This document shows, piece after piece, positions 52,071 through 56,414 of a stretch of DNA of 64,000 bases; position 1 is the first letter of the stretch; the number at the start of each line of letters is the position of its first letter. A model generated the notes under the pieces. It worked only from the letters and a program-made list of their open reading frames with translations. It ran no database searches and was not told the origin of the DNA. Source of the stretch: Solirubrobacteraceae bacterium (GTDB lineage: Bacteria; Actinomycetota; Thermoleophilia; Solirubrobacterales; Solirubrobacteraceae). The DNA lies in NCBI GenBank assembly GCA_029263125.1, contig JAJCYD010000052.1, positions 1 to 64,000 on the forward strand. Direction: 5' to 3'. Position numbers and translations under genes: made by a program.

Positions 52071-53027
52071 TCACGAAACCGTTGGGTCCAGGGTGACCTT
52101 TCCCATGGTGCGCCGCTGCGCGAGGTCGCGCTGGGCCTGCGCGGCGTCGGCGAGCGGATAGGCGGGGCCCGTCACCGCGCGCAGCTCGCCGGCCTGTACC
52201 CGCGCGAAGAGGTCGGCGAGCGCTTCGTCGACCATCTCGGGACGCCCGAGGCAGTGCATGAGCCAGAAACCGACCACCGATCGCGAGCTGCGCATCAGCG
52301 CTCCGCTGCGCACGGTGTTCGCCTCGCCGGAGGCGATGCCGTAGGCGACGAGTCGCCCGAAGGGCCCCAGCGCGGCCAGCGAGCGGTCGAAGGTCTTGCC
52401 GCCCGCCATCTCGAAGACGACGTCGACCGGCCTGCCGAGGTTCGCCTCGACGAGACGCTCGGTCAGGTCCTCCGGCGCGCCGTCGATCGCCGCGTCGGCG
52501 CCGAGCTCGAGGGCCAGCTCGCGCTTGGCGGCGGTCGACGCGGTCGCGATCACGCGCCCGGCGCCCATCGGCCGGCCGAGCTGCACGGCCAGCGAGCCGA
52601 CGCCGCCGGCGGCGGCATGCACGACGACGCTCTCGCCCGTGGCCACGCGGCCGCATGTCCGGTACAGATGCCAAGCCGTGAGCCCTTGCAGCAGCAGCGC
52701 CAGGGCCGTGGCGTCGTCGACGGCGTCGGGAATCGGGAAGGTCTGTGCAGCGGCCGCGATCGCGTACTCGGCATAGCCGCCGCGGCCCAGCAGCGCCACG
52801 ACGCGCTCGCCGGTGTCCTCGCGCACGCCGGCGACCTCCGAGCCGGGAACGAGCGGAAGCTCGTCCTTGGCGAGATAGGTGTTCGTTCGCCGGTGGGTGT
52901 CGGCGAAGTTCAGTCCGGCCCGGGTGACGCGCACGAGAACCTCGCCCTCGCCGGGCTCGGGGACCGCCAGCTCGACGAGGTTGAGCACCTCGGGCCCGCC
53001 GTACTCCGACATCTGGATCGCACGCAC
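52071..53027 (-). CDS. NADPH:quinone oxidoreductase-like medium-chain dehydrogenase
   Basis: A 318-residue zinc-free MDR protein, second of this type in the window. Features: the MRAIQMSEYGGPEVLNLVEL start, RAGLNFADTHRRTNTY, VPGSEVAGVRED, the Rossmann loop VHAAAGGVGSLAVQLG (about 136-151) and MAGGKTFDRSLAAL. It is closest in pattern to QorA-like enzymes. GTG 53027 lies 6 nt after TAGCCT and is divergent from the STAND-like NTPase gene with 57 bp between starts. Confidence 0.88.
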   Translation of the reverse strand: MRAIQMSEYGGPEVLNLVELAVPEPGEGEVLVRVTRAGLNFADTHRRTNTYLAKDELPLVPGSEVAGVREDTGERVVALLGRGGYAEYAIAAAAQTFPIPDAVDDATALALLLQGLTAWHLYRTCGRVATGESVVVHAAAGGVGSLAVQLGRPMGAGRVIATASTAAKRELALELGADAAIDGAPEDLTERLVEANLGRPVDVVFEMAGGKTFDRSLAALGPFGRLVAYGIASGEANTVRSGALMRSSRSVVGFWLMHCLGRPEMVDEALADLFARVQAGELRAVTGPAYPLADAAQAQRDLAQRRTMGKVTLDPTVS

Positions 53028-53033
53028 CGTGCC

Positions 53034-53039
53034 AGGCTA
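53034..53039 (-). promoter_or_regulatory. -10 hexamer TAGCCT of the second oxidoreductase gene
   Basis: TAGCCT lies 6 nt before GTG 53027. Confidence 0.48.
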
Positions 53040-53084
53040 CCCCGCGGCTTGTCTGCCCTGAGGTGATCTGCAAGGCTCGTCGGC

Positions 53085-55244
53085 GTGCAAGCCGCGTCGG
53101 GGATGCGCAGCGTCGCCCTCGCCGGAGACGCCACCAACAGTGCGATCGTGACAGGCGACAAGGTCACGGTTCAGCTGCGCGTGGACGGGGAGGATGCCCT
53201 GCTCGCGAGCCTGCTGAGGAGGTCTCCCTCGCGGACGCTTCGCCCGCGCCCGCTCGACGGGCTGGCGCCGCCGTCGCCAGAGCACCTCGACCGCGGCGCC
53301 GAGAGCCAGGCTGTGCGTGCGGGTGTTGGTCCCGGGCGGGTCTTCGAGCTCTGCGGCGAGCCGGGGATCGGCAAGACCTTCGTCTTGCGCAGCGCGCTGC
53401 AGGGCGGCGCGGGGATGCCAGACGGCAGCGTGTGCATGTTCGCGGCGGGCAAGCCGTACTTCGACGTGCTCCAGGAGCTGCACGAGGCGTTCCATGCATC
53501 GGGGCAACCCGCCGTCATCGGCCAGCAGCAGATTCGCCGCGACCTCGCCGACCGCAGCGCGCTGGTCGTGATCGACGCGATCGAGCCCGGGGACGACGAG
53601 CTGCGACAGCTCCCGCTGGTGCTGCCCGGCTGCGCGCTCGTGCTTGCCGGGCGCGAGCCGTTGGGCGTCGAGGGCGTGAGCCTGCAGGTCGGCGGCTTCG
53701 CGACGCTCGACGCGATGAAGCTCGTCGAGCAGGAGCTCGGGCGGCCGCTGCAACCCGACGAGCTCGCCGCGGCCGAGCGGGTGTGCTCGCTGCTCGGCGG
53801 GCATCCTTTCCACCTGCGCCAGGCGACGGCCGGGGTTCGCGCCGGACGGCGCACCGTCGAGCAGCTGGCGCAGGCGCTCAGCGGCGACGCGCGGGCCACG
53901 CTCGCCGCGCTGCTCGTCGACGGCCTGTCGGGCGAGGAGGCGGCGATCGTCTCGCGGCTCGCGGCGCTGGGCGGCGCCGCCGTCGCGGCCGAGCACCTCA
54001 GCGAGATCGCCGGCGCCGACACGCCCCGGGTGCTCGCCGCGCTCGTGCAGGCGCGGCTGATCGCCGCCGACGGCGCCCGCTATCGGATCGCGGGCGTGTT
54101 GCACGATCGCGGGGTGCTGGACTCCGGCGAGCTTGAGCGCGCGAGCGCGTACTTCACGCGCTGGGCGCTGGGCGCTCGGTCGCGCCCCGCCGCGCTGCTC
54201 GCCGAGGCGCCCGCGCTGCTTGCGCTGCTGCGACGCGCCGAGCAGGAGGGCCGCGACACCGACGTCATCGCGCTGGGCCGTGCGAGCGACGCGGCGTTCG
54301 CGTGGGGCCGGCGCTGGCAGACGTGGGGCGAGGTGCTCGACGCCGTCCTCATCGCCGCCGAGCGCAGCGGCGACGCGAGCGCGCGAGCCTGGGCGCTGCA
54401 TCAGGCCGGTACGGTGGCCTACTGCCTGGGGGACTCCAGCTACGCCCGCGAGGCCCTCGACGAGGCGCTGCGGGCTCGAGAGATGCTCGGCGAACGCGAC
54501 CCCGCGGAGGCGACCCGTCACAACCTGCAGTTCATCGCCGAGCCGCCGGTGGCAGGCGGCGGCGTGGCCGACGGCGCGAGCGCGGGGCGCGGCGCGCGCG
54601 ACGGCGAGGACCTGGGCGTCCTCAGCCTGCTCGGCATCCGCGCCCCGTCGGTGGCGGTCGGAGGCGTGGTCGTGGCCGTCATCGTCGGCATCATGGTGCT
54701 GGGCGGCGTCATGGCACTCGCGCTCGGTGGCGGCGACGCGGACTCGTCGGGATTCGTGACGGCGACCACGGCGACCGAGCCCGCGATCACGACCCAGACG
54801 CAGACGACGCCCCCCGTCGAGCAGTTCACGCTCGACGTGTCGGTCACCGGCGACGGCGAGGGCACGGTCCGCTTCGACGGGCGGACGTGCACCGACCGCT
54901 GCGCGTACGACGTCGACGACGGAACCGAGGCATCCCTGGTCGCGACCGCGCGCTCGGGATCGACGTTCGAAGGCTGGACCGATCCCTGCGCGATGAAGCG
55001 GCGCTGCACGCTGGGCGTGACCGGGCCTCGCATCCTCATCGCGACCTTCACCGTCGATGCGACGCCGCCGCCGCCGGAGTGCGACGAGATCGTCGATCCC
55101 GGCTGCCTGACGGATCCCGAGATCCCGCCGCCGGTCACGCCACCTCCGCCCGTGACCACGGCGCCGGTCGTGCCGCCGCCGGTCATCACGCCGCCACCGC
55201 CCCCGCCGGCGACGACGACGCCCGGCGTCCAGGATCCGAACTGA
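53085..55244 (+). CDS. STAND-like NTPase with transmembrane helix and extracellular InlB-type repeat domain
   Basis: A 719-residue protein. Residues 8-30 (SVALAGDATNSAIVTGDKV) match the short glycine/TGD lead-in found before many bacterial NACHT/NB-ARC proteins. An ATPase follows with Walker A GEPGIGKT (91-98), Walker B LVVIDA (160-165), sensor LVLAGR (185-190) and GGHPF (238-242), an NB-ARC-like order. Helical, TPR-like repeats span about 390-480. A membrane helix lies at 521-547. The outside part (582-657) resembles the divergent InlB/Listeria-type repeat with four Cys (602, 606, 635, 641) and GSTFEGW. A proline-rich tail closes it. ATG 53103 is an alternative start. Confidence 0.78.
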   Translation: MQAASGMRSVALAGDATNSAIVTGDKVTVQLRVDGEDALLASLLRRSPSRTLRPRPLDGLAPPSPEHLDRGAESQAVRAGVGPGRVFELCGEPGIGKTFVLRSALQGGAGMPDGSVCMFAAGKPYFDVLQELHEAFHASGQPAVIGQQQIRRDLADRSALVVIDAIEPGDDELRQLPLVLPGCALVLAGREPLGVEGVSLQVGGFATLDAMKLVEQELGRPLQPDELAAAERVCSLLGGHPFHLRQATAGVRAGRRTVEQLAQALSGDARATLAALLVDGLSGEEAAIVSRLAALGGAAVAAEHLSEIAGADTPRVLAALVQARLIAADGARYRIAGVLHDRGVLDSGELERASAYFTRWALGARSRPAALLAEAPALLALLRRAEQEGRDTDVIALGRASDAAFAWGRRWQTWGEVLDAVLIAAERSGDASARAWALHQAGTVAYCLGDSSYAREALDEALRAREMLGERDPAEATRHNLQFIAEPPVAGGGVADGASAGRGARDGEDLGVLSLLGIRAPSVAVGGVVVAVIVGIMVLGGVMALALGGGDADSSGFVTATTATEPAITTQTQTTPPVEQFTLDVSVTGDGEGTVRFDGRTCTDRCAYDVDDGTEASLVATARSGSTFEGWTDPCAMKRRCTLGVTGPRILIATFTVDATPPPPECDEIVDPGCLTDPEIPPPVTPPPPVTTAPVVPPPVITPPPPPPATTTPGVQDPN

Positions 55245-55286
55245 AGCGACCGCGAACGGGCACGCCCCGCCGGGCGCCGACTGACG

Positions 55287-55471
55287 AGTGGCCCATCCAG
55301 AAACGTTGCACCCGAAACGCCGGGCGCCGATCACCGCCATGCGGCGTCCTCGGATCTCGATGTGGCAGAGCCACACCTTCGATCCTGCGTCCTTGCGGGC
55401 ACCGCCGGCGAAGCCGGTGGTCGGCGCCGGCATCCCGGCGTTTCAGGCACAACATTCCTGGACGACCCACT
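55287..55471. repeat. 185-bp imperfect inverted repeat, large predicted hairpin
   Basis: The outer 21 bp (AGTGGCCCATCCAGAAACGTT against AGTGGGTCGTCCAGGAATGTT on the other strand) and the next bases up to CGCCGGG pair with about 80 percent identity; the differences are mostly transitions. Inner arms GCCGATCACCG/CGGTGGTCGGC and GTGGC-AGA-GCCAC continue the fold to the centre at about 55365-55372. The right end touches the TAGGGT promoter of the PfkB gene. No coding sense on either strand. Confidence 0.62.
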
Positions 55472-55476
55472 AGGGT
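55471..55476 (+). promoter_or_regulatory. -10 hexamer TAGGGT of the PfkB kinase gene
   Basis: TAGGGT lies 8 nt before ATG 55485. Its first base is the last of the inverted repeat, so any -35 contact would fall in the hairpin arm. Confidence 0.48.
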
Positions 55477-55484
55477 CCCGGCGC

Positions 55485-56414
55485 ATGAGTGTCACTGTTG
55501 TCGGATCGATTGCCTATGACGCCGTGCAGACCCCGCACGGCAGCCGCGAGCGCATGCTCGGCGGGGCCGCCGTCCATTTCGCGCTGGCGGCGTCCTTCTT
55601 CGACGAGGTCCGAGTCGTCGGTCCGGTGGGAGACGATTTCGGCGACGACGAGTACGCCGTGCTGCACGGCCGCGGCGTCAACACCGACGACATCGAGCAC
55701 GTCGAGGGCGGCAAGACGTTCTTCTGGAGCGGCGTCTATGGCGAGAACATGAACTCGCGCGAGACGCTGGAGACCGACCTCAACGTCTTCGAGACCTTCG
55801 ACCCCAAGCTCTCGGATGCCTCCAAGCAGTCAGACGTGTTGTTCCTCGCGAACATCTTGCCCGAGCTGCAGCTCAACGTCCGCAGGCAGTGCGAGGCGGC
55901 GCGCTTCGTCGCGCTGGACTCGATGGACCTGTGGATCAACATCGCCAAGGACGCGCTGATCGCCGCGATCTCAGAGGTCGACTGCGTCATCCTCAACGAC
56001 GGCGAGGTCGAGCAGTTCACCGGCGAGCGCGAGGTCGTCGCGGGAGCGCGCAAGATCATGCAGCACGGGCCGTCGTCGATGGTCGTCAAGCTCGGAAAGT
56101 ACGGCGCGGCGCTCGTCACGCCCGAGGAGTCATTCTGGATCCCGGCCTTCCCCGTGGACTTCGTCACCGACCCCACGGGCGCGGGCGACTCGTTCGCCGG
56201 CGGGTTCGTCGGCGCGATCGCCGCCCAGGAGGGCGACGTGACCGCCGACGTCCTGCGCCTGGCGATGGCCTACGGCACCGCGGTCGCGTCGTTCAACGTC
56301 GAGGAGTTCGGCACCGAACGCGTCGCGCGGCTGACCGGCGAGGAGATCGTCGAGCGCGTGGCCGAGCTGCAGCGGATCACGACCTTCCAGGCGACCACCG
56401 TCGCGCTGCGCTGA
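55485..56414 (+). CDS. PfkB-family sugar kinase (ribokinase/adenosine-kinase-like)
   Basis: A 309-residue ribokinase-fold kinase. VGSIAYDAVQTPHG and LGGAAVHFALAASFF form the sugar-binding start. LANILPELQ and ILNDGEVEQFTGE are typical of a group often annotated as PfkB sugar kinase near inositol or nucleoside metabolism. The catalytic loop DPTGAGDSFAGGFVG is complete. The substrate is unknown. It is followed after 14 bp by a PAP2 gene. Confidence 0.87.
   Translation: MSVTVVGSIAYDAVQTPHGSRERMLGGAAVHFALAASFFDEVRVVGPVGDDFGDDEYAVLHGRGVNTDDIEHVEGGKTFFWSGVYGENMNSRETLETDLNVFETFDPKLSDASKQSDVLFLANILPELQLNVRRQCEAARFVALDSMDLWINIAKDALIAAISEVDCVILNDGEVEQFTGEREVVAGARKIMQHGPSSMVVKLGKYGAALVTPEESFWIPAFPVDFVTDPTGAGDSFAGGFVGAIAAQEGDVTADVLRLAMAYGTAVASFNVEEFGTERVARLTGEEIVERVAELQRITTFQATTVALR

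Follow-up and report, generated by a model that had tools for sequence, protein, structure and literature searches.

In a 64,000-nt stretch of the genome of a Solirubrobacteraceae bacterium (GenBank assembly GCA_029263125.1, contig JAJCYD010000052.1, positions 1 to 64,000; hereafter the window), we found a gene whose product joins a short N-terminal beta motif, a STAND NTPase, TPR-like helices, one membrane helix and a predicted outside domain of the InlB type. The reading that we favour, with a probability of about 0.55, is that proteins of this type are single-pass membrane NLR-type receptors that would feed a motif-templated death effector. We regard a surface receptor with such an effector as the best reading because relatives of the window gene show the layout of Bell/BASS-like pairs, with Bell-like or caspase neighbours that carry the motif. 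The open reading frame (ORF) at 53085-55244(+) is open and intact (719 aa), is present in single copy in its own genome, and encodes a protein ~40% identical over residues 5-486 to relatives in two congeneric metagenome-assembled genomes (MAGs), with a more distant relative (33% identity) in another family of the order; given this conservation, it is not a chance ORF.

An AlphaFold2 model of the window protein, built with 24 relatives, has a pLDDT (predicted local distance difference test) of about 90 over residues 65-485 and places low-confidence strands at 16-40. With VIA-align, residues 56-489 matched Apaf-1 at Z 23.7 (407 aligned residues, 4.5 A), and the model also matched PH0952 (Z 23.0), the plant NLR NRC1 (Z 21.7) and MalT (Z 21.5), while the top sequence match of a profile against the PDB was AfsR (8k60, E 5e-17). 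Judged from the model, the core is an Apaf-1/NLR-type STAND NTPase with a winged helix and C-terminal repeats. For the ATPase, neither NB-ARC nor NACHT reached the curated Pfam threshold in the window protein, which gave only AAA_22 at 17.6 bits (cut-off 27); NB-ARC does pass its cut-off in the relatives L089 (31.0 bits) and L091 (33.4 bits). TPR_12 is also weak (18.0 bits vs a cut-off of 30.1), though the model shows the TPR helices clearly. KAP NTPases are membrane-associated P-loop proteins of the STAND clade, with membrane segments within the NTPase domain; membership of this family was considered and is unsupported, since Pfam found no match to PF07693 in the window protein, and here, unlike in KAP NTPases, the membrane helix follows the TPRs.

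A single strong hydrophobic helix spans residues 528-546 (Kyte-Doolittle mean 2.84), with a flanking charge of +1 before and -2 after. Beyond it, PF18998 (divergent InlB B-repeat) matches residues 585-657 above its cut-off (E 6.7e-7; 29.6 bits vs 23.6), AlphaFold2 places a beta-sandwich at 578-657 (pLDDT about 65), and four cysteines (602, 606, 635 and 641) lie within the InlB-type domain, with two further cysteines in the tail. From the topology and the type of domain, the InlB-type part is predicted to lie outside the cell. An initial annotation, made from the sequence, had described an NB-ARC-like ATPase with Walker A and B motifs, TPR-like helices, a membrane helix and a four-cysteine InlB-type domain; the fold, the Pfam results and the single helix therefore bear out this anatomy, both Walker motifs standing where they had been placed. 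Structure prediction, which it had proposed as a check, recovered the STAND fold, whereas the profile searches it had proposed were borne out for PF18998 but not for NB-ARC/NACHT and TPR_12. The genus also encodes small membrane proteins of about 270-330 aa (L005, L008, L026 and L027) that combine a membrane helix with one InlB domain and DNDGDGLTDTAQDPGC-type repeats, and whose helix-InlB part is shared with the STAND protein.

The link to an effector comes from the relatives. At six loci whose motif is of the same class (G004:C127, G001:C10, G001:C13, G081:C6, G430:C77 and G759:C129, the last in another family of the phylum), a gene for a 136-140 aa helical-bundle protein lies directly upstream and ends 2-12 nt before the STAND start. 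This partner protein has a hydrophobic N-terminal helix followed by a helical bundle (AlphaFold2 on two sequences; bundle pLDDT 75-80), and its C-terminal motif (e.g. GERSVAVGGSVTGGVIVTGDSATV) resembles the N-terminal motif of the STAND protein (SVALAGDATNSAIVTGDKVTV, residues 9-29 in the window protein). The latter is what had been annotated as a TGD-type lead-in, and it turned out to be common to the relatives and their partner genes. Local alignment of partner C-termini with cognate STAND N-termini gave z 4-12 against shuffled sequence, and the window motif scored z 11.0 and 9.2 against the G430 and G081 partner motifs, respectively. We do not claim specificity of the motif pairs, because only G430 clearly scores best with its own partner. 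The same partner family is found upstream of soluble NLR/TPR genes with a similar motif, on Aulosira and Acaryochloris plasmids and in G789. Furthermore, the neighbour of remote STAND-helix members is a Bell-like protein carrying the motif (L111); in L089, L091 and L094 it is a ~144-aa protein that has a copy of the motif at its N-terminus, and in L113 a caspase-domain protein (PF00656, E 8e-18) whose motif lies towards the C-terminus. When ORFs from other loci served as the null, nine motif-bearing neighbourhoods were supported and the window's own neighbour was at chance level. PADLOC matched none of the three partner proteins tested, and for five relatives returned one generic TPR match only.

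Some of these loci have features of their own. The STAND gene at G001:C13, a second copy in that genome (L032 8616-10800), is frame-broken past the Walker region beside an intact partner gene, for which a pseudogene, phase variation or an assembly error are candidates. Caspase-domain neighbours of STAND genes lie at L113 7700-8758 and L114 5204-6298, and zinc ribbons occur on the STAND and the caspase partners alike, clearest in L114, and are possibly a second pairing device.

The architecture is not a one-off, because at least four phyla have it: scanning genome contigs with an alignment gave 40 loci, spread over Actinomycetota, Chloroflexota, Armatimonadota and filamentous Cyanobacteriota, where a scan of the same contigs with a single sequence gave none, and the named relative records are Solirubrobacteraceae and Thermoleophilaceae MAGs. 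The family core consists of the N-terminal motif, then STAND, then TPR, and a clear membrane helix (Kyte-Doolittle 1.9 or more) is present in 24 of the 36 proteins examined. What follows the helix varies: one to five InlB repeats, PKD/Ig, HYDIN or choice-of-anchor D, cadherin/Big_9, TIG with Big_3, FGE-sulfatase, LysM with SdrD_B, or PD40. Such swapping of domains behind the helix fits the expectation for diversifying receptors. The FGE-sulfatase/GldK-like domain of L100 (4962-7529) is an enzyme-type outside domain, which is unusual for a STAND protein. In a tree of the STAND core, the window protein is sister to G081 (98/96) within an InlB clade (100/99).

Bell/BASS-NLR amyloid signalling pairs were described by Dyrka et al. 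2020, whose work is summarised in PMC7889193 and PMC8086366; their published layout joins Bell, BASS and NLR in adjacent or overlapping genes (PMC7889193, PMC8086366), and a published BASS3 peptide has a related GDGN pattern (PMC8086366, Table 2). The present family resembles these pairs in having a STAND/NLR protein with a short N-terminal motif and, in the relatives, an upstream small helical protein whose N-terminal helix is hydrophobic and whose C-terminus carries a similar motif. On the favoured reading, the outside InlB-type domain would meet a surface or wall cue, and the signal would travel by way of the single membrane helix to the TPR and winged-helix region, releasing an ADP-held STAND switch into ATP-dependent oligomerisation. 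Clustering could then gather the N-terminal beta motifs into an amyloid-like seed, which in the relatives would template the same motif at the C-terminus of the small Bell-like effector encoded just upstream; the templated effector would attack the membrane, and the cell would be killed or arrested. Of this chain, computation shows the STAND fold, the membrane helix, the modular outside-type domains, the sharing of the motif and the close coupling of the two genes in relatives; the topology, the sensing of a ligand, the amyloid templating and the death of the cell are inferred. More tentatively, at somewhat under even odds, we put forward that these are true bacterial cell-surface NLRs, namely single-pass STAND receptors with interchangeable outside domains through which an extracellular cue would lead to amyloid-like templating of intracellular, membrane-killing Bell-type or caspase effectors.

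Several points weigh against a receptor that feeds a motif-templated effector. Only 57 nt lie upstream of the window STAND gene before a divergent dehydrogenase gene, with no partner adjoining, and profile searches of its own 95%-complete assembly, with the partner alignments and with the motif alone, gave no credible partner. The partner model as a whole was built from only two sequences and has a pLDDT of 59, so that only a helical bundle is visible. A motif-bearing neighbour was found, within the flanks examined, for no more than about one in three of the relatives surveyed, and cyanobacterial relatives of the Scytonema/Fischerella type have a marginal membrane helix or none. Moreover, pattern and layout, rather than a comparison with BASS profiles, suggest the assignment to the BASS family. 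Finally, co-occurrence with a defence island, which the initial annotation had named as support for a defence role, did not hold in the window: a search of the surroundings found no such island, the flanks being an HrpA-type helicase, the dehydrogenase, a PfkB kinase, a dCTP deaminase and citrate synthase, and PADLOC gave no match for the window protein.

The solitary state of the window copy speaks for an alternative, by which the gene is a decaying orphan that was inserted and lost its effector, with signalling gone or with the protein left as a decoy absorbing foreign motif-bearing proteins. All other members of the InlB clade have the partner gene, and because of this the partner of the window copy was probably lost or left behind. 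The N-terminal motif of the window protein is the only copy found in the genome. A partner match at G000:C17:96560 (E 3.5e-5) was rejected, as it lies antisense to a polynucleotide phosphorylase-like gene, and a profile match at 53055-53174 (E 0.025) was rejected as a partner relic, as it is the STAND protein's own N-terminal motif; a regular-expression motif scan of the window gave nothing useful, the pattern missing the known motif itself. The gene order also speaks for an insertion. The flanking zinc dehydrogenase (52071-53027, minus strand) and PfkB kinase (55485-56414, plus strand) genes are adjacent, 44-79 bp apart, in G001, G004 and G081, and in the congeneric genome G006 (L147, G006:C23) the same pair is split by about 9 kb with the look of haemin-type ABC uptake. 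Since the pair is adjacent in three relatives and holds a 9-kb block in a fourth, the window STAND gene is, by this comparison, a solo accessory insertion in a variable spacer beside housekeeping genes. On the other hand, the ORF and both Walker motifs are intact and the N-terminal motif is well kept, and a few per cent of the genome is unassembled; we consider the orphan reading rather unlikely, if the foremost of the alternatives. On the favoured reading, the window copy would be one of two things: a receptor with an undetected partner, or one that lost its output.

A second alternative, to which we give slightly less weight still, takes the outside domain as an anchor, in which InlB, HYDIN or cadherin domains fix a cytosolic-facing NLR to the wall or envelope, a pore-forming partner works at the membrane, and the TPRs read an internal cue (e.g. 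a phage protein). In STAND proteins such as PH0952 and MalT sensing is usually the task of the TPRs, InlB and Ig-like domains are often adhesive, and the partner family is also found with soluble NLRs; a plain anchor, however, needs no domains so varied and in part enzyme-like as FGE-sulfatase, LysM, TIG and PD40. An AfsR/MalT-type membrane-bound regulator of an adaptive response (wall, adhesion, development) rather than of cell death is improbable, for although AfsR is the top PDB sequence match, MalT and PH0952 are close folds and the window copy stands among housekeeping genes with no death effector, the protein has no DNA-binding or other output domain and, in the relatives, the same motif is borne by partners that are helical membrane-type proteins or a caspase.

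The coordinates of the gene and its parts are collected in Table 1. An imperfect inverted repeat at 55271-55490 (arms about 70-75% alike) lies between the STAND stop and PfkB inside the inserted segment, and could be terminator-like or a small mobile-element remnant.

Table 1. Positions in the window of the STAND gene, its predicted parts and the segment that holds it.
Feature	Coordinates	Strand	Basis or remark
STAND NTPase-TPR-membrane helix-InlB-type domain protein, 719 aa	53085..55244	+	GTG start, alternative ATG at 53103
N-terminal beta motif, residues 6-30 (GMRSVALAGDATNSAIVTGDKVTVQ)	53100..53174	+	resembles C-terminal motif of relatives' partner proteins
NB-ARC-like NTPase and winged-helix region, residues 65-345	53277..54119	+	AlphaFold2, VIA-align/Foldseek, PDB profile
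Walker A GEPGIGKT, residues 91-98	53355..53378	+	sequence; kept in most relatives
Walker B LVVIDA, residues 160-165	53562..53579	+	sequence and alignment
TPR-like helical repeats, residues 346-487	54120..54545	+	AlphaFold2 helices; sub-threshold TPR_12
Predicted membrane helix, residues 528-546	54666..54722	+	hydropathy and AlphaFold2 helix
Predicted outside domain, InlB B-repeat type (PF18998), residues 576-659, four cysteines	54810..55061	+	Pfam, AlphaFold2
Proline/threonine-rich tail, residues 660-719	55062..55241	+	sequence
Inserted segment within conserved divergent gene pair	53028..55484	.	comparison with relatives

Taken singly, the STAND switch, the motif-coupled pair and InlB domains are nothing new. 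Apaf-1, plant NLRs, PH0952, MalT and AfsR share the NTPase, winged-helix and repeat core (VIA-align Z 20-24), but they are soluble, sense inside the cell and have neither a membrane helix nor an outside domain. The Bell/BASS-NLR pairs differ in that an NLR with a membrane helix and an outside domain is not described in the available parts of PMC7889193 and PMC8086366, and in that the window copy has no partner gene, whereas an adjacent one is present in six related loci. The GAP1-N2 and EACC conflict systems (PMC7159879; EACC2, PMC8195603) are likewise membrane-tethered, with variable and sometimes extracellular domains (cadherin, CHASE2), but they have GTPase-associated, caspase or other cores, and no STAND receptor that bears an amyloid-like motif at its N-terminus. 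Of published ideas, the closest is that of conflict proteins tethered to the membrane whose extracellular domains are joined to other cores (PMC7159879, PMC8195603). For the union of these parts in a bacterial membrane-spanning receptor family we found no description in a partial coverage of the literature, and the primary BASS paper may yet mention membrane NLRs. The combination had been annotated as unfamiliar and as a candidate for an undescribed system; the union of STAND, helix and outside domain keeps that standing in the literature covered, but its recurrence across phyla removes the rarity, and the system is not wholly unlike known ones, because the relatives form two-gene units laid out like Bell/BASS amyloid NLR pairs.

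NLR/STAND immune switches are usually viewed as inside sensors. If our reading is true, bacteria would be able to mount NLR-type responses to events at their surface, for example recognition of kin, adsorption of phage, contact with a predator or damage to the wall, and the compact two-gene examples of G081 and G004 make the idea of a surface receptor directly testable. Cell-surface bacterial NLRs of this kind would then parallel death receptors.
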